From contig JAQBPX010000011.1 of the NCBI GenBank assembly GCA_028287305.1, positions 1-64,000 of the forward strand: DNA of 64,000 nucleotides. The letters run 5' to 3'. Below are positions 3,584 to 20,786 of this stretch, piece after piece (the stretch's first letter is position 1; each line of letters opens with the position of its first letter). A model generated the notes under the pieces. The model was not told where the DNA came from. It made no database searches and saw nothing but the letters and a program-made list of their open reading frames with translations. This stretch comes from Gemmatimonadota bacterium. Lineage in GTDB: Bacteria > Gemmatimonadota > Gemmatimonadetes > Gemmatimonadales > Gemmatimonadaceae. The position numbers and the translations under genes were made by a program.

Positions 3584-4360
3584 ATGGCGACACAACCCGC
3601 CCGCTCCCTAAAGCACGAGTACGAGCTGTTCGTGGAAGAGGAGATCGAGAACTACAAGGAATCGATCCCTCGGAGCGCCATCCTCGCCATCGGCGACGAG
3701 GCGGTTCGGACGCTGTCCGCCGAACCACAGCTGGCGCTCACCGAGATGCTGCTGTGGGAGGAGGTGGACCGCGTCATCGTGCGGCGCCTGCGCCTGCCCG
3801 CCTACACCACCTGGCGCAAGCGCCGGCTCAAGATCCTGGCGGAGCTCCGCCGCCCAGAGCACTGGGGACTGCATCCGGACGATCCGGTCGTGCGCGCACT
3901 CCGTCCCGCCGCGGAGGGACACGTGCTGGTGGCCGGGGTCCCGCGCGACGCGCAGACGCTCTACCTGGCAGCCAACGGCTGCGAGGTCACGGCGATCGGC
4001 CCGGAGAGCGAGGCGCTCGAGCGCGTGCTCATCGCGGCCGAGGAGGCCGGGCTCACGGACCGCGTGCACGCGCTGGACGCGGATTTCTCGAGCTGGATCC
4101 CGGATGGGCCGCTGCACGCCGTGATCTGCACTCCGGAGGCGTTCATCGGCCTCTCGGCGGCGGAGCGCGCGCGCGTGATCGCGGCGCTCCAGAGCGCGAC
4201 GGCTGACGGTGGGGTTCACCTGCTGCAGGCGATAGCGGTGGGAAAGAAGACGCTTTCGCTCACCGAGCTCCACCGCTGGTACGAGGGCTGGGAGGTCACG
4301 GTCGAGCAGGGTGACGGACTGAAGGCGAATACTTTCCTGGCGAGAAAGGAGCTGAGCTAG
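3584..4360 (+). CDS. Class I SAM-methyltransferase-like protein, function unknown
   Basis: A 258-residue soluble protein. Residues 1-95 are helical and charged (LFVEEEIENYKESIPRSA near the start) and match nothing I recognise. Residues 105-210 look like a Rossmann methyltransferase: a glycine-poor first motif (HVLVAGVPRDAQTLYLA), an acidic second strand (CEVTAIGPESEALER), and a later strand AVICTPEAF. The canonical GxGxG loop is degenerate, so SAM binding is inferred only. ATG 3584 was preferred over upstream codons because the region before it reads as intergenic. It stands alone between the transporter and a terminator. Confidence 0.7.
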   Translation: MATQPARSLKHEYELFVEEEIENYKESIPRSAILAIGDEAVRTLSAEPQLALTEMLLWEEVDRVIVRRLRLPAYTTWRKRRLKILAELRRPEHWGLHPDDPVVRALRPAAEGHVLVAGVPRDAQTLYLAANGCEVTAIGPESEALERVLIAAEEAGLTDRVHALDADFSSWIPDGPLHAVICTPEAFIGLSAAERARVIAALQSATADGGVHLLQAIAVGKKTLSLTELHRWYEGWEVTVEQGDGLKANTFLARKELS

Positions 4361-4371
4361 CGTGTCACTGC

Positions 4372-4400
4372 GATACACTCATAGTCGTTTCGAGTGTGTC
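4372..4400. promoter_or_regulatory. Inverted repeat, candidate activator-binding site
   Basis: GATACACTC (4372-4380) and GAGTGTGTC (4392-4400) form an 8-of-9 inverted repeat with an 11-bp spacer. Its centre is about 110 bp upstream of the sigma-54-like element at 4485-4500, the usual range for an enhancer-binding-protein site. It overlaps the 3' untranslated region of the preceding gene, so it could instead be a weak hairpin. Confidence 0.35.
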
Positions 4401-4410
4401 ATCCTGCTAC

Positions 4411-4440
4411 AAGGCCCACCGCGACGCGGTGGGCCTTTTT
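4411..4440 (+). terminator. Rho-independent terminator
   Basis: AAGGCCCACCGC-GACG-GCGGTGGGCC-TTTTT forms a GC-rich hairpin with a T-run, 50 bp after the stop of the methyltransferase-like gene. It isolates the following peptide operon from upstream transcription. Confidence 0.9.
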
Positions 4441-4484
4441 CGTCAAGCCGTTGCCATGAAAGGCTTTGCACATGCAAGTGGCCG

Positions 4485-4500
4485 TGGCACCGGCAGTGCT
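4485..4500 (+). promoter_or_regulatory. Sigma-54 (-24/-12) type promoter
   Basis: TGGCACCGGCAGTGCT matches TGGCACG-N4-TTGCW at the key positions: TGGCAC is complete, and the GG of -24 and GC of -12 are exactly 12 bp apart (4486 and 4498). The mismatches are C for G after TGGCAC and G for the first T of TTGC. Transcription would start near 4511, giving a leader of about 130 nt before the peptide gene at 4639. A sigma-54 activator with an intact GAFTGA loop is encoded at 17471-18862, so the organism uses this sigma factor. Confidence 0.6.
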
Positions 4501-4638
4501 TTAGGGGAGATTGCCTTGATAGCGGCCCACGGGTCGCCGGGTGTCGGGGGCGAGCCGTTCTCGTCGCTGCGCCCGCAGGGCAACTCGCAGATCACCGGGC
4601 AGCCCGCCCGCATTCATATAGAGCAGGAGAGCAGAGCC

Positions 4639-4794
4639 ATGCGCAGCAAGGTGAAGGATACGGCAGTGCAGGAGCCGATGGGCATCGTGATTTCCCGTGG
4701 CAGCCGGGTGGAGCCGACCCCGCGCTTCCTGGCGTATGTATGGGGACCGGCACCGGAAGACGAGATCGTCGCGCCTTCCCCGCGCGCAGCCTGA
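4639..4794 (+). CDS. 51-residue peptide, candidate substrate of the adjacent peptidase/ATP-grasp pair
   Basis: A short gene with a good ribosome binding site (GGAG at 4626-4629). The peptide begins MRSKVKDTAV, has a central GIVISRGSRVEPTPRFLAYV, and ends in an acidic/proline tail GPAPEDEIVAPSPRAA. There is no signal peptide or membrane segment. An in-frame ATG at 4456 would give a longer product but has no ribosome binding site and lies upstream of the expected transcription start. The gene lies 13 bp before the metallopeptidase and shares its promoter. The layout (short peptide, peptidase, ATP-grasp) resembles ribosomal-peptide-modification loci; that role is inferred, not shown. Confidence 0.6.
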   Translation: MRSKVKDTAVQEPMGIVISRGSRVEPTPRFLAYVWGPAPEDEIVAPSPRAA

Positions 4795-4807
4795 CAGGGC
4801 TGCAGCA

Positions 4808-5890
4808 GTGAGCACGGCGGCGCCCCCGGGCGCCGCCGTTCGCGTTTTCGGTACGGTCGTTGCCCCCGTCGAGCTCATGTACGCCGATGACGCCTGGCAC
4901 ACGGAGCGCGAGGAACTGCTGGGCCGCCGGATTTCCGAGCTGGGCCTCAGCCTGCGTGGCAGCCGCCTCGAGCTCCTGGTGGAGCAGCTGCACCAGGAGC
5001 TGCGCTCGCGCGGAATCGCCTTCATGCCCCCTGCCTACCTCACCGACCAGTGGGGCTGCCCTGACGGCACGCCGATCATCGGGGTGCCGTTCTACCTGGC
5101 CGACGCGCGACTCGAGCGCATCGAGGCAGAGATGTCCGGGGCGGTGGAGGGCGACGTGGAATCCATGCGCTACCTGCGGCACGAGGCAGGGCACGCATTG
5201 AATTATGCGCTTCGGCTCTACGACGACCCCGAGTGGCAGGTACAGTTCGGCCGCTTCGACGCGCCATATGCCGACCGCTACGAGCCCGATCCGTTCTCGC
5301 GCGCGTACGTGCGACACATCCTCGGCTGGTATGCGCAGAAGCATCCGGACGAGGACTTCGCCGAGACGTTCGCGGTGTGGCTCACGCCAGGGTTCGATTG
5401 GCGCGAGGAGTACGCGAACTGGCCGGTGCTGGCCAAGCTCGAGTACGTGGATCGCGTGATGGCCGCGCGCGGGGCGGAGTCACCAACCGTGCCCGAGCCG
5501 GCGGAGGATGACCTTCCCGTGGAGGCGATGGGGTACACGCTGCTCGAGCACTACGACGCCGATCCCGAACGGTTGCCGGCCGGCGACGAGCGGCACTTCG
5601 ACTCCGACCTGCGGCGCATCTTCGCCAGCGCGGCGGATGCACCGGAGTGTGAGGAGGCGTCGCTCTTCCTGCGGAGGCACACCACCGAGATGATGTCGCG
5701 GCTCGGATACTGGACGGGCGAGCCGCCCACGGTGATCCGCTCGGTGCTCGACCTGCTCGCGCGCCGCGCGAGCACCATGGGACTGAGGGCGAGCGGGCTC
5801 GAGGCGTCCACGCTGGTGGAGCTCACCGCATTCATGACGACGGTGCTGATGCACCATCGCCACACGCAACTTTCATCGGCGCGCCAATGA
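4808..5890 (+). CDS. Putative zinc-binding metallopeptidase (HExxH)
   Basis: A 360-residue cytoplasmic protein with a zinc-protease signature: RHEAGHALNY (HExxH near residue 125), followed about 60 residues later by HPDEDFAETFAVWLTP, whose glutamates can supply the third ligand. This matches a family usually annotated as putative zinc-binding metallo-peptidase. There is no signal peptide. GTG 4808 was chosen because AGGG lies 8 nt upstream and the frame before it overlaps the peptide gene; ATG 4877 is an alternative. Its stop overlaps the next ATG (ATGA at 5887), so it is translationally coupled to the ligase. Substrate is unknown; the adjacent peptide is the obvious candidate. Confidence 0.82.
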   Translation: MSTAAPPGAAVRVFGTVVAPVELMYADDAWHTEREELLGRRISELGLSLRGSRLELLVEQLHQELRSRGIAFMPPAYLTDQWGCPDGTPIIGVPFYLADARLERIEAEMSGAVEGDVESMRYLRHEAGHALNYALRLYDDPEWQVQFGRFDAPYADRYEPDPFSRAYVRHILGWYAQKHPDEDFAETFAVWLTPGFDWREEYANWPVLAKLEYVDRVMAARGAESPTVPEPAEDDLPVEAMGYTLLEHYDADPERLPAGDERHFDSDLRRIFASAADAPECEEASLFLRRHTTEMMSRLGYWTGEPPTVIRSVLDLLARRASTMGLRASGLEASTLVELTAFMTTVLMHHRHTQLSSARQ

Positions 5891-6855
5891 AGATCGTCAT
5901 CCTGCACACCGCGGACGCGCTGGATCCGCGCGATCCGGTGCTCGACCAGCTCGACGGCGCGCTTCGCGAGGCGGGTCACGCGACGGCGTTCGTGGCGCTC
6001 GGCGCCAGCGTGAGCGAGGTGGTGCGCGCGCTCGAGGCGGAGGCCGCGGAGCTGGTGGTCAACGTGGCGGAGAGCTTCGACGGGCGCAGCGCGCTGGAGT
6101 CGAACGTGGCCGGGCTGCTGAACCTGCTGGGCCTACGCTACACCGGATCGAGCCCGGCGGGGCTGTTGATGGCGGGCGACAAGTCCCTGACGAAGAAGCT
6201 GCTCGGCTTCCACGGCATCCAGTCACCGGCATTCACCACGATGTGGCGCGGGGCGGTGGACTGGAGTGGCGAGCTGCAGTTTCCCCTGATCGTGAAGCCG
6301 CCGCAGGAGGATGCCTCCATCGGCATCACGTCCGCGAGCGTGGTGCACGACCTCAAGGAACTGTTCGGGCGGATGGATGCGCTGCAGACGGAGTTCCGCT
6401 CGCCCGTGCTCGTGGAGCAGTACATCGAGGGGCGCGAGTTCTACGTGGGCGTGCTGGGCAACGTGGACGCGATGGCGCTGCCGATCATCGAGCTCGACTT
6501 CACGGGATTCCCGGATGACCGGCCGCGCATCGCGAGCTGGGACGCCAAGTGGGAGGAGGCGGGCGCGGAGTACAAGGGCACGCGCTCGGTGTTCGCGGAG
6601 GGGCTCGACGAGGCGCTGGCGTTGCGGATGCAGCAGGTGGCGGTGGATGCGTTCCATGCGCTTCGGCTGCGGGACTACGCGCGCATCGACCTGCGGGTGA
6701 CGGACGCCGGGGAGATCTACGTGATCGAGGTGAACCCGAACTGCTACCTGGAGCGGGAGGCGGAGTTCGCGCGGTCGGCGGCGAAGGCGGGCACGGAGTA
6801 TCCGGCGCTGGTGTCGAGGATCGTGGAGCTGGCGTCGGCGCGGTACGCGCGCTGA
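5887..6855 (+). CDS. ATP-grasp ligase, D-Ala-D-Ala-ligase-like
   Basis: A 322-residue ATP-grasp enzyme. Visible are the Ddl-like YTGSSPAGLLMAGDKSLTK near residue 82, the ATP-binding lysine in FPLIVKPPQEDASIGI, VEQYIEGREFYVG, and the metal-binding end YARIDLRV ... IYVIEVNPNCYLE. True D-Ala-D-Ala ligases end that region with EVNTxPGMT; here it is EVNPNCYLE, so the D-alanine site is not conserved. I therefore call it a carboxylate-amine ligase of unknown substrate rather than ddl. It overlaps the metallopeptidase by 4 bp and is followed by a strong terminator, so it closes the operon. Confidence 0.85.
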   Translation: MKIVILHTADALDPRDPVLDQLDGALREAGHATAFVALGASVSEVVRALEAEAAELVVNVAESFDGRSALESNVAGLLNLLGLRYTGSSPAGLLMAGDKSLTKKLLGFHGIQSPAFTTMWRGAVDWSGELQFPLIVKPPQEDASIGITSASVVHDLKELFGRMDALQTEFRSPVLVEQYIEGREFYVGVLGNVDAMALPIIELDFTGFPDDRPRIASWDAKWEEAGAEYKGTRSVFAEGLDEALALRMQQVAVDAFHALRLRDYARIDLRVTDAGEIYVIEVNPNCYLEREAEFARSAAKAGTEYPALVSRIVELASARYAR

Positions 6856-6876
6856 GCGGAGCTGGGGCAAACGAAA

Positions 6877-6910
6877 GACGCCGGTGCGGAAATCCGCACC
6901 GGCGTCTTTT
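6877..6910. terminator. Bidirectional terminator
   Basis: A perfect 13-bp stem (GACGCCGGTGCGG and CCGCACCGGCGTC) with an AAAT loop, flanked by AAA on one side and TTTT on the other. It ends the ATP-grasp operon from the left and the H1-like gene from the right. Confidence 0.92.
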
Positions 6911-6925: not shown

Positions 6926-7063
6926 TTAGCGCTTCTTCGCCTTCTTGGCGCTCTTCTTCGCGCCGCCCTTCTTCGCAGCCTTGCGAGCGCCGCCCTTCTT
7001 CGCGGTCGACTTGCGGGCTCCGCCCTTCTTGGCAGCCTTGCGGGTGCTCTTCTTTGCGGCCAT
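6926..7063 (-). CDS. Histone H1-like Lys/Ala-rich protein (45 residues)
   Basis: A very small basic protein, MAAKKSTRKAAKKGG and so on, built from about three repeats of ARK(A/S)(A/T)AKKGG and ending KKSAKKAKKR. Nearly every residue is K, A, R, G or S, as in the C-terminal tails of histone H1 and bacterial H1-like nucleoid proteins (for example the Hc1/AlgP type). It probably binds DNA or RNA non-specifically. The AGGAG ribosome binding site (7073-7077) is 9 nt from the ATG and is the 3' arm of a small hairpin. It ends 16 bp before the shared terminator. Confidence 0.8.
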   Translation of the reverse strand: MAAKKSTRKAAKKGGARKSTAKKGGARKAAKKGGAKKSAKKAKKR

Positions 7064-17470: not shown

Positions 17471-18862
17471 ATGCCCAGTGTCCTGATCGTGGACGACGAG
17501 CCGAACATCCGACGGATGGTCGGTGCGCTGCTCGCCGCCGAGGGATACGAGGTGCGCGAGGCGGTGAATGGTGAAGCCGGGGTGAAGCAGGCGATCGCGG
17601 AGGAGCCCGACGCGGTGCTGCTCGACCTCATGATGCCAGGCGAGCTGGATGGCATGGGCGCGCTGGCGAAGCTGCGGGAGCTGGTGGCCGACACGCCCGT
17701 GGTGATGATGAGCGGGCGGGCGGAGCTGAGCGACGCGGTGAAGGCCACGAAGCTGGGCGCCTTCACCTTCCTCGAGAAGCCGCTCACGCCGGAGGGCGTG
17801 CTGCTCGCGCTCTCGAGCGCGATGGAACTGCGGCAGGCGCGTCGCGAGGCGCGCGCCCTCCGGGCCGACCTCGGCCTGGCGGCCAGCATGGTGGGCGCGA
17901 GCCCGGCGCTGCAGCGCGTGCGCGACATGATCGCGCGCGTGGCGCCCACGGACGCCCGCGTGCTGGTGACGGGCGAGAGCGGCACGGGCAAGGAGCTGGT
18001 GGCGGCCGCCATCCACGCCGGGAGCTCGCGGCGCGACCGGCCCTTCATCCGCGTGAATTGCGCGGCGATCCCGCGCGACCTGGTGGAGAGCGAGATGTTC
18101 GGGCACGAGCGCGGAGCGTTCACGGGCGCCACCGATCGCCGCATTGGCCGCTTCGAGCTCGCACACACCGGGACGCTGTTGCTGGACGAGGTCGGCGACC
18201 TGGGCGCGGATGCCCAGGCGAAGCTGCTGCGCGCGATCGAGGCGAAGGAGATCGAGCGCGTGGGAGGCGGCAGCCCCATTCGCGTGGACGTGCGCATCGT
18301 GGCCGCCACCAATCGCGACCTGGAGCGCGCGGTGGCCGATGGCAGCTTTCGCGAGGACCTGTTCTTCCGGCTCAACGTGATCCCGATCGCGGTGCCGCCG
18401 CTGCGCGACCGGCCGGACGACGTGCCGACGCTCGTCGCGCATTTTTCGATGCTGCACCGCGCGCGCACCGGCCATCCCGCGCCGCGCTGGAGTGCCGACG
18501 CCATGACGCTGCTCGCCCGTCATCGCTGGCCCGGCAACGTGCGCGAGCTGGCGAACATCGTGGAGCGCCTCGCCATCCTGCATGCGGGACGCGAAGTGAC
18601 GGCCGAGGACGTAGCGGGCGTGCTGCCCGCGGAGCGAAACCGGGGAGTGGCGGGTTCGAGTGCCCTTCCCGATCCAGCCGCGCTCGACCGCTCGCTGACG
18701 GACACCCTGGATGACTACGAGCGCACGCTGATCACGCGCGCGCTCTCGATGGCGGAAGGCAACGTTGCCGAGGCCGCACGCCGCCTGAAGACGGACCGCC
18801 CGAACCTCTATCGGCGGATGAAGCGCCTCGGCATCGGCAGCGAGGAACGCACGCTGGAGTGA
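17471..18862 (+). CDS. NtrC/NtrX-type sigma-54-dependent response regulator
   Basis: A 463-residue transcription activator. The receiver domain is residues 1-120 (acidic D8-D9, phosphoacceptor D52 in LLDLMMP, K102 in LEKPL). The AAA+ domain is about 135-370, with Walker A GESGTGKE, the sigma-54 contact loop GAFTGA and Walker B TLLLDEVGDLG. A C-terminal Fis-type helix-turn-helix ends the protein (EGNVAEAARRLKTDRPNLYRRM). All key residues are intact, so it should remodel RNA polymerase-sigma-54. It is the last gene of the kinase operon and the plausible partner of H210 in the kinase. The sigma-54-like promoter at 4485-4500 is one possible target. Confidence 0.96.
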   Translation: MPSVLIVDDEPNIRRMVGALLAAEGYEVREAVNGEAGVKQAIAEEPDAVLLDLMMPGELDGMGALAKLRELVADTPVVMMSGRAELSDAVKATKLGAFTFLEKPLTPEGVLLALSSAMELRQARREARALRADLGLAASMVGASPALQRVRDMIARVAPTDARVLVTGESGTGKELVAAAIHAGSSRRDRPFIRVNCAAIPRDLVESEMFGHERGAFTGATDRRIGRFELAHTGTLLLDEVGDLGADAQAKLLRAIEAKEIERVGGGSPIRVDVRIVAATNRDLERAVADGSFREDLFFRLNVIPIAVPPLRDRPDDVPTLVAHFSMLHRARTGHPAPRWSADAMTLLARHRWPGNVRELANIVERLAILHAGREVTAEDVAGVLPAERNRGVAGSSALPDPAALDRSLTDTLDDYERTLITRALSMAEGNVAEAARRLKTDRPNLYRRMKRLGIGSEERTLE

Positions 18863-19025
18863 CATCAAGCGACACGGCACTGTGCCGCGTTGGGGACAGC
18901 GGGAAATGAACGCCTGAGGAATGGAATCCTCCAACTCGTTCGCGGGTAACCAATTACGCGATAGTTCGCCGTCGGGTACGCGCACTGCCTACGTGCGTCA
19001 CCGACTACCAATCCCCGGAGTTCAC

Positions 19026-20786
19026 ATGCGAAGTATGCTGATGACGCTCGCCCTGGGGCTCGCACCGATGGTGGTGCAGGCGCAGGAGCGTGACTCGACC
19101 CCAGTGCGACGCGGCCTTGCCCGCGACATCGCGCGGGAAGCAGCTGACCTCTACAACGCTCCCGCCGCGATTCGCGCGAGCGCGCGCACCGAGATCGCCG
19201 CCGGACAGACGGTGCGGGGCGACGTCTCCGTGATCGACGGCCCGGTCGTGATCGCCGGACACGTGACCGGCCGGGTGCTGGCCATCAACGCGGACGTCAC
19301 GCTGCGACCCACGGCCCGGATCGACGGCGACCTGCTCGTGGTGGGCGGTGAGGTGATCGGCCGCAACGAGGGCTACGTGGGCGGCGAGATCCGCAGCTAT
19401 CGGCAGCGCATGGCATATACGCGGGAGGGCGACCGCATCGTGGCGGACCGCCGCACCGCTTCCGCGAATCGCGACGACCGCGGCAACCGCGGCGACCAGG
19501 GCGACGAGCCGACCGAGGACAGCTGGTGGCGTCGCTGGGAACGCCGTCGGTACCGCAGCAGCACGGGGCTGCGGCTCGCGACGGCCGGGGCCTACAATCG
19601 CACCGAGGGGTTGCCGATCAAGCTCGGTCCTTCCGTGCACCTCAACTATCCATCCGGCAGCTTCCGGCTGGATGCGCATGCCATCCTTCGCACGGGGAGC
19701 AGCTTCAACTCGACGAAGAGCGACGTGGGCCACGACGTCTCCACCGAGTGGCGATTCGGTCGCCGCGGTGGGCTGGGGATCGGCGCGCATGCGTTCAACG
19801 TCGCCGAGCCGGTGGAGTCGTGGCAGCTGTCGAACCTCGAGGTCGGACTTGCGAGCTTCCTCGCGCGCCGCGACTACCGCGACTACTACGACCGCCACGG
19901 CGGCGAAGTGTTCGCCACCCTCTTTGCCACGCGCCGCGGAGAGCTGACCGCGGGATTCTCCGACGAGCACTGGGGGCGGCGCGACCTGCGCAACCCGTGG
20001 ACGCTCACGCGACGCGACGATGACTGGCGCGCGAATCCCCTGCTCGACGAAGGACGCCTGCACGTCGCGAGCGCGCAGCTGACGATCGACACGCGCAACA
20101 ACCGCAACGACCCCTGGTCGGGCTGGTTCGCCACGCTCGACTGGGAGCGCGGCGTCGGCAAGCTCACGCAGCTGGGGCCCTCCACCGTGTCGCGCAACTA
20201 CGGGCCGAACGGCGCGGTGGACTACACGCGCGGATTCGCCGACCTGCGGCGCTACAACCGGCTGGCGCCGGATGCGCAGCTGAATTTTCGCGTGGTGCTC
20301 GGCGGTTGGCTGAACGGCGATCCGCTGCCGCTGCAGCGCCGGCTGTCCATCGACGGCCCGGGCTCGGTGCCGGGGTTCGACTTCCGGACCACGCACCAGG
20401 GCGAGGATGTCGGGACGTGCGGGGCCACGTCGCTTCCGATCGCCGGCATGCCCGCGCAATGCGACCGGATCGCGCTGGCGCAGGTGGAGTATCGCGGCGA
20501 CCTCCACATCGACCTGTTCTCGGCGTGGGACGATGGCGACGAGTACCGCGCCTTCAACCACGATGGGAACTGGGTGCTGTTCGCCGATGCAGGACGCGGC
20601 TGGCTGGTGGGACCGCGCGCCACCGACCTCACCTATCCGAAGTCCTCGCTCCCGGAGTTCGGGACCTTTCGCACGGACATCGGCGCGGGGATCGACTTCG
20701 ACGCCATCGGCGTGTTCGCGGCCAGGTCCATGAGCGACCCGAAGGAAGCGGTGAACTTCTTCCTTCGCATCAGGCACCGCTTCTAG
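19026..20786 (+). CDS. Outer-membrane barrel protein with bactofilin-like beta-helix N-terminus
   Basis: A 586-residue exported protein. After a signal peptide (MLMTLALGLAPMVVQAQ) residues 55-125 show short repeats typical of a right-handed beta-helix (GQTVRGDVSVIDGPVVIAGHVTGR, then LRPTARIDGDLLVVGGEV), like polymer-forming bactofilins. An acidic/basic linker follows (RDDRGNRGDQGDEP), then a long region of amphipathic strands ending in Phe (FFLRIRHRF), the classic C-terminal beta signal of BamA/surface-antigen type barrels. GGAG about 5 nt upstream supports ATG 19026. One base separates it from the next gene. Function unknown; probably an outer-membrane structural or transport protein. Confidence 0.82.
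   Translation: MRSMLMTLALGLAPMVVQAQERDSTPVRRGLARDIAREAADLYNAPAAIRASARTEIAAGQTVRGDVSVIDGPVVIAGHVTGRVLAINADVTLRPTARIDGDLLVVGGEVIGRNEGYVGGEIRSYRQRMAYTREGDRIVADRRTASANRDDRGNRGDQGDEPTEDSWWRRWERRRYRSSTGLRLATAGAYNRTEGLPIKLGPSVHLNYPSGSFRLDAHAILRTGSSFNSTKSDVGHDVSTEWRFGRRGGLGIGAHAFNVAEPVESWQLSNLEVGLASFLARRDYRDYYDRHGGEVFATLFATRRGELTAGFSDEHWGRRDLRNPWTLTRRDDDWRANPLLDEGRLHVASAQLTIDTRNNRNDPWSGWFATLDWERGVGKLTQLGPSTVSRNYGPNGAVDYTRGFADLRRYNRLAPDAQLNFRVVLGGWLNGDPLPLQRRLSIDGPGSVPGFDFRTTHQGEDVGTCGATSLPIAGMPAQCDRIALAQVEYRGDLHIDLFSAWDDGDEYRAFNHDGNWVLFADAGRGWLVGPRATDLTYPKSSLPEFGTFRTDIGAGIDFDAIGVFAARSMSDPKEAVNFFLRIRHRF

Follow-up and report, generated by a model that had tools for sequence, protein, structure and literature searches.

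GIVIS, a conserved peptide family of the Gemmatimonadota with a sigma-54-type promoter, and the zinc peptidase and Ddl-like ligase beside it in one clade

We describe here a peptide gene and its neighbours in a 64,000-nt stretch of DNA (contig JAQBPX010000011.1 of assembly GCA_028287305.1, positions 1–64,000; hereafter the window), which is part of a 4.4-Mb genome of a Gemmatimonadaceae-type family. The gene encodes 51 residues, MRSKVKDTAVQEPMGIVISRGSRVEPTPRFLAYVWGPAPEDEIVAPSPRAA, and belongs to a previously undescribed family, the GIVIS peptides, with the consensus EPxGIVISRGx3ExxPRFxAYVWGPxPE...AA. It stands behind a sigma-54-type promoter and directly downstream of a constant partner gene, F1, and in one clade of the Gemmatimonadaceae it is followed by a pair of genes, a zinc metallopeptidase and an ATP-grasp ligase resembling D-alanine–D-alanine ligase (Ddl), with a putative promoter of their own. 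A sequence-only reading of the window had presented peptide, peptidase and ligase as one sigma-54-controlled locus and a candidate system for the modification of a ribosomal peptide. The solid new result is in our view the peptide family, its partner F1 and its regulation; an action of the pair on the peptide as a carrier, scaffold or substrate, by C-terminal extension and trimming, is a tentative reading to which we give a probability of about 0.4.

The peptide family and its constant neighbour

The peptides of eight relatives that carry all three genes are 45–58% identical to that of the window, and a profile built from these nine sequences gave matches in 203 of 395 genomes of the phylum at E ≤ 0.1. 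Weak matches outside the window's own family (E 0.02–0.1) were not counted as real; homologues are present in about 130 genomes. Within that family the peptide is found in about 93% of genomes (missing from 10 of about 138 sampled), usually as one copy per genome and with nearly all matches at E < 1e-7, and diverged peptides of the form GIVI..G....PR...[FYW].W occur in the Gemmatimonadota families f2, f3, f4 and f6. When 84,980 species genomes were scanned for EPxGI[VI]IS[RNC]G, a pattern that diverged members can escape, 65 named loci were recovered, all 65 of them in Gemmatimonadota and mostly in Gemmatimonadaceae. Neither Pfam nor NCBIfam has a model for the peptide, and literature searches returned no description of it. 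A viral origin was rejected, as no relative turned up in a scan of viral contigs.

Codon comparisons indicate that the peptide is under strong purifying selection. In the peptide core the pooled proportion of synonymous differences (pS) is 0.43 against 0.17 for nonsynonymous differences (pN), that is, codon changes are mostly silent, and the ratio of the corresponding rates (dN/dS) is 0.02–0.3 in most close pairs; the pS and pN values and the family-wide homologues rule out a chance open reading frame. The middle 24 residues are near-invariant (EPxGIVISxG...PRFxAYVWG), and the GIVISRG and EPTPRFLAY blocks, which the sequence-only reading had singled out, do form the conserved core of the family, flanked by about 11 variable N-terminal and 15–20 variable C-terminal residues. 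The peptide ends in AA in 69 of 91 members and in VA in 9 more, and the residue before these two is R, K or Q in 26 of 28 peptides of the pair-carrying clade against at least 24 of 63 others, counts that ignore kinship. The variable tail accepts insertions of four-residue repeats. At L215 (5001–5174), and likewise at L082, a tandem expansion of this kind, DSVQDSVQDSVQD, precedes a constant ATRAA end, and the length of the tail therefore seems to be free. AlphaFold predicts neither secondary structure nor a fold for the peptide (predicted template modelling score 0.17).

The primary partner of the peptide is F1, not the peptidase and ligase, because F1 is adjacent in most loci, co-occurs with the peptide and is missing together with it. 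Of 49 peptide loci, 43 contain a member of the F1 family, which in nearly every case directly precedes the peptide. The F1 N-domain occurs in 230 of 390 genomes of the phylum, almost always in single copy, and also in families f4 and f6, where peptide relatives occur. Nine of the ten genomes of the window's family without a detected peptide are also without the F1 N-domain; the peptide/F1 locus has either been lost as a whole or is absent from those assemblies. The AlphaFold model of F1 (mean predicted local distance difference score 89.9) has a four-helix N-domain at about residues 8–94, and its top PDB matches by Foldseek are TehB (E 7e-12), which points to a TehB-like methyltransferase fold; Pfam matches are weak. 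An intact GxGxG S-adenosylmethionine motif is lacking, as motif I is degenerate with one near-invariant glycine (G118). In the f6 genome of locus L122 the match to F1 next to the peptide is confined to the N-domain.

Regulation of the peptide and of the pair

The −24/−12 element upstream of the peptide, TGGCACCGGCAGTGCTTTA, in keeping with the sigma-54 control named in the sequence-only reading, is confirmed by its relatives: a score of at least 18.5 was reached in 66% of 104 peptide loci against 0.2% of shuffles, and an exact match to the TGGCACCGGCAGTGCTTTA pattern is unique in the window's genome. The hallmarks of a sigma-54 promoter are found together here, namely GG-N10-GC at −24/−12, activator genes in the genome (about 11 strong ones) and enhancer repeats. 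Among the 104 loci GTGTC occurs in 101 and GACAC in 98, and these are arranged as TGTC-N5-GACA in 27 loci and as TGTC-N7-GACA in 26, where fewer than one is expected for either in shuffles. The GTGTC repeats probably serve a sigma-54 activator as enhancer sites. The sites of QseF/GlrR, TGTC-N10-GACA (PMC8745638), are similar to these dyads, although the spacing is not identical. A further dyad, AAGYC.TTG-N5-.AA.GRCTT, is present between the enhancer repeats and the promoter in many peptide loci (window 4445–4466) and is possibly an IHF-like or activator site. Elsewhere in the window, a sigma-54 activator with a receiver domain (about 17471–18863) is followed by a −24/−12-like element, GGTACGCGCACTGC (about 18970–19027), ahead of the gene of an exported protein.

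The 5′-untranslated region (5′-UTR) of the peptide contains a hairpin which, like F1, had been overlooked in the sequence-only reading. In relatives the loop is a conserved heptaloop, ACCGTTC, found in 26 of the 104 loci, with 9 for the next-best loop pentamer, while the stems vary compensatorily and reach 18 bp in L158; an Rfam search gave sub-threshold matches alone, so that the hairpin matches no family above threshold.

The peptidase had been proposed to start at GTG 4808, only 13 bp past the peptide. We reject this start and place it most likely at ATG 4877, giving a protein of 337 residues, because a terminator and a second −24/−12 element intervene between the two genes, because this layout is kept in 27 of 28 relatives, and because the homology of peptidase relatives mostly begins near residue 20–30 of the GTG 4808 reading. 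The same terminator and promoter, splitting peptide from peptidase in 27 of 28 loci, led us to reject a single operon of three genes. Both elements lie within the 82 bp from the peptide stop to ATG 4877, and most of the 28 relatives show a hairpin with a T-run at the equivalent place. The second element takes the form GGTAYG-N4-TTGC (or GG-N8-TTGC) in 27 of 28 intergenic regions upstream of the peptidase. Its strict pattern was found zero times in shuffles, and in 22 of 26 members of the peptide-adjacent clade vs 0 of 17 in other clades. As ATG 4877 is situated about 13 nt past the −12 GC, the peptidase mRNA may be leaderless. Judged by these elements, sigma-54 would be used at both promoters, and since peptide and pair each have a promoter and the peptide has its terminator, the two are probably induced together yet on separate transcripts.

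A mostly single-copy gene with a sigma-54-type promoter, enhancer repeats and a fixed neighbour in most genomes of the family and recognisably beyond is likely to have an important role, and the peptide gene gives direct access to a phylum that has received little study.

The peptidase–ligase pair and its possible role

The ligase matches PF07478 (Dala_Dala_lig_C) at 99.1 bits (3e-28), remains under the NCBIfam cut-offs for the Ddl equivalog and subfamily (129.9 vs 243 and 117.2 vs 245.65 bits), and has Ddl/Van ligases as its PDB matches, mostly from residue ~62 on. It is thus Ddl-like and outside the known graspetide class, as the sequence-only reading had held, and its ATP-grasp catalytic Lys, Glu and Gly are invariant in 30 relatives. 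The peptidase reaches 24.6 bits (E 2e-5) against PF15887 (Peptidase_Mx), which has a gathering cut-off of 27, and a sequence search of the PDB found no relative of it; H125, E126, H129 and the downstream E186 (numbered from GTG 4808) are invariant in 43 sequences. The active-site residues of both enzymes are invariant in both main clades. At locus L065 (G000:C16:219499–221300) we observed two tandem Ddl-like ATP-grasp genes, 34–37% identical to the window ligase, with no conserved peptide near them.

Gene order and phylogeny indicate that the pair is a separate module that was joined to the peptide once, in one clade. The peptidase is present in 96 of 179 genomes of the window's family and falls into two main clades. 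Peptidases at least 55% identical to that of the window form a clade of about 40 genomes from about 10 genera, and 38 of its 39 testable members have the pair next to the peptide; the tree fits a single gain of this adjacency. In this clade, then, peptide and pair are conserved side by side as had been proposed. The concern that the pair might occur mostly without any small upstream gene turned out to be partly justified, since the pair as a whole, through its other clades and families, is mostly found without the peptide; and the peptide is not tied to the pair, being so much more widespread in the family than the peptidase. No hidden homologue of the peptide was found beside the pair in other clades, by profile or by eye among the small upstream reading frames. 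The interval between the peptide and a threonine dehydrogenase gene is a site of turnover and insertion that holds different genes in other genomes. At L098, L103, L111, L113 and L116, where the zinc peptidase and ligase are missing, genes of TldD/PmbA-like peptidases lie just 3′ of the peptide, and at L115, L122 and L127, from three different families, the peptide is followed by a gene for a flavin-dependent (FAD) oxidoreductase.

Ddl-type ATP-grasp enzymes activate a carboxylate, normally that of alanine, and couple an amine to it. Two modules meet at this locus. The first, found in several Gemmatimonadota families, consists of F1 followed by the peptide of about 50 residues under predicted sigma-54 and enhancer control, and the second, placed behind the peptide in one Gemmatimonadaceae clade, of the zinc peptidase and the Ddl-like ligase. 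In the reading we favor, the conserved middle of the peptide would be recognised, the ligase would activate the C-terminal Ala carboxylate as an acyl-phosphate and couple it to an amine, either an amino acid or a small amine, and the peptidase would trim or release the product. We infer the peptide as substrate, its C-terminus as the site and the identity of the product. A peptide that is flexible, carries a conserved recognition block and a length-tolerant linker, and always closes on the same Ala-Ala would plausibly serve as the carboxylate substrate. The pair is favored as a modifier because the adjacency is kept in 38 of 39 members although the site otherwise turns over, and because the second promoter is clade-specific and the active sites are intact. 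The apparent co-regulation likewise favors an action on the peptide, and the enrichment of R, K or Q before the last two residues an action at that end. A more specific version, in which the peptide serves repeatedly as a carrier, with the tRNA-independent ligase building a small molecule on its C-terminus and the peptidase releasing it, as a sigma-54-switched class not described so far, we consider unlikely. Should the pair indeed act on the peptide, the two would form a scaffold-peptide pathway with a new type of ligase.

Several observations weigh against an action of the pair on the peptide. About half of the family's genomes keep the peptide without such a peptidase, and the C-terminal AA is also found in genomes without the pair, and therefore has not evolved for this ligase. 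In G031 the pair is present and the peptide undetected; in the sister group (G031, G321) and in the second clade the pair is not beside the peptide, and the pairs of families f2 and f3 have no adjacent peptide and are sometimes convergent. The sole exception within the clade, G399, has lost the neighbourhood and carries the pair behind an unrelated gene, with the GGTACGCGCCTTGC promoter kept. No transporter or recognition element was identified.

The main rival to the scaffold model is mere co-regulation: peptide and pair would be two outputs of one sigma-54 response, with the pair acting elsewhere, for example on a small peptide or an envelope component, and with the adjacency as inherited synteny. 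We regard this as a tenable possibility. It would account for G399, for peptides without the pair, and for pairs without the peptide, which often have genes for a sugar-nucleotide transferase and a cupin close by, and it agrees with the theme of the cell exterior, including peptidoglycan precursors, in sigma-54 regulons (PMC3162934). Less easily reconciled with it are the near-constant adjacency at an otherwise changing site and the R/K/Q-AA signature of the pair-clade peptides.

Alternatively, the peptide could be an unmodified, short-lived regulatory protein, induced through sigma-54, removed by ClpXP through its ssrA-like end, and acting on F1 or another target. This we find doubtful, an estimate that concerns the peptide itself and overlaps with the co-regulation alternative. 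Its universal partner is indeed F1, the conserved middle would serve as a binding motif, and the AA ending of 69 of the 91 peptides is that of the tag of the genome's own transfer-messenger RNA (tmRNA), ANSNLALAA. Because AA is found in genomes lacking the pair as well, and is shared with the tmRNA tag, a ClpXP degron would explain it just as simply. As a signature, however, a short Ala-Ala terminus is weak, and the recruitment and co-regulation of a ligase and peptidase would be left unexplained.

For the favored reading, an action of the pair on the peptide, two known systems provide comparisons of principle. In the LysW/LysX/LysK system a carrier of about 54 residues, with a zinc ribbon and a C-terminal EDWGE, is served by an ATP-grasp ligase and a metallopeptidase that releases the product. 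The locus has the same three kinds of component, but the peptide has neither zinc ribbon nor EDWGE and the ligase is Ddl-like rather than LysX/RimK-like; with Cys in just 8 of 91 peptides and AA or VA at the C-terminus of 78 of 91, it is not a LysW carrier. In the 3-thiaglutamate pathway, an amino acid is added to the C-terminus of TglA, a ribosomal scaffold of about 50 residues, and a protease releases the product (PMC9016710). The scaffold principle is alike, with C-terminal addition predicted here, but the adding enzyme there is a tRNA-dependent, LanB-like peptide aminoacyl-tRNA ligase (PEARL), whereas here it is a Ddl-like ATP-grasp protein, which excludes the locus from the PEARL pathway. 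The working principle of PEARL and LysW may, by analogy, resemble that of this locus.

Finally, the trio could be a classical cluster for a ribosomally synthesized and post-translationally modified peptide with a secreted product, of a graspetide-like kind as the sequence-only reading had suggested. A short conserved peptide gene adjoining an ATP-grasp ligase and a peptidase is reminiscent of the microviridin-type graspetides, near which peptidases are sometimes encoded (PMC8939145). We nevertheless consider this very unlikely and do not count the locus among the graspetides. The ligase belongs to another ATP-grasp family, the Ddl branch, by its Dala_Dala_lig_C domain, Ddl subfamilies and PDB matches; the peptide is most conserved in its middle, with no hypervariable core and no ring pattern shared in its variable tail; no double-glycine protease was seen beside the locus; and the peptide is near-universal in the family at about one copy per genome, mostly without the ligase. 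The peptidase-associated ATP-grasp branches 7 and 8 (PMC8939145) are without a recognised precursor, as is the pair outside the peptide clade, but their ATP-grasps are of the graspetide family. The pheganomycin ligase PGM1, also an ATP-grasp enzyme, attaches a small building block to a peptide of ribosomal origin (PMC8939145), but it works within a large biosynthetic cluster, and nothing similar surrounds this locus.

Layout of the locus

Apart from the peptidase start, the layout of the sequence-only reading stands: the peptide frame with its good ribosome binding site, the HExxH metallopeptidase frame, the ligase, whose start shares 4 bp (ATGA) with the peptidase stop, and both outer terminators are present (Table 1).

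Table 1. Features of the peptide locus, in window coordinates.
Feature	Position	Strand	Basis
F1, constant upstream partner; four-helix N-domain and TehB-like class I methyltransferase fold	3584–4357, to 4360 with stop	+	
GTGTC repeats, probable enhancer sites for a sigma-54 activator	4362–4366, 4396–4400	+	Locus counts
Terminator of F1	4411–4440	+	Sequence
Sigma-54-type −24/−12 promoter of the peptide, TGGCACCGGCAGTGCTTTA	4485–4503	+	Locus scoring vs shuffles
5′-UTR hairpin GGCGAG-CCGTT-CTCGTC	4549–4565	+	Sequence, relatives
GIVIS peptide, 51 residues	4639–4791, stop to 4794	+	Homologues, purifying selection
Terminator separating peptide from peptidase	4815–4848	+	Sequence, relatives
Second −24/−12 promoter, for peptidase and ligase, GGTACGGTCGTTGC	4850–4863	+	Relatives vs shuffles
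Zinc metallopeptidase, Peptidase_Mx-like, HEAGH ... HPDEDFAETF	4877–5890	+	PF15887 score, conserved HExxH
D-Ala-D-Ala-ligase-like ATP-grasp ligase	5887–6852, to 6855 with stop	+	PF07478
Terminator 3′ of ligase	6877–6910	+	Sequence

Directly past the ligase terminator, the minus strand encodes a Lys/Ala-rich, histone-H1-like protein of 45 residues (6926–7063).

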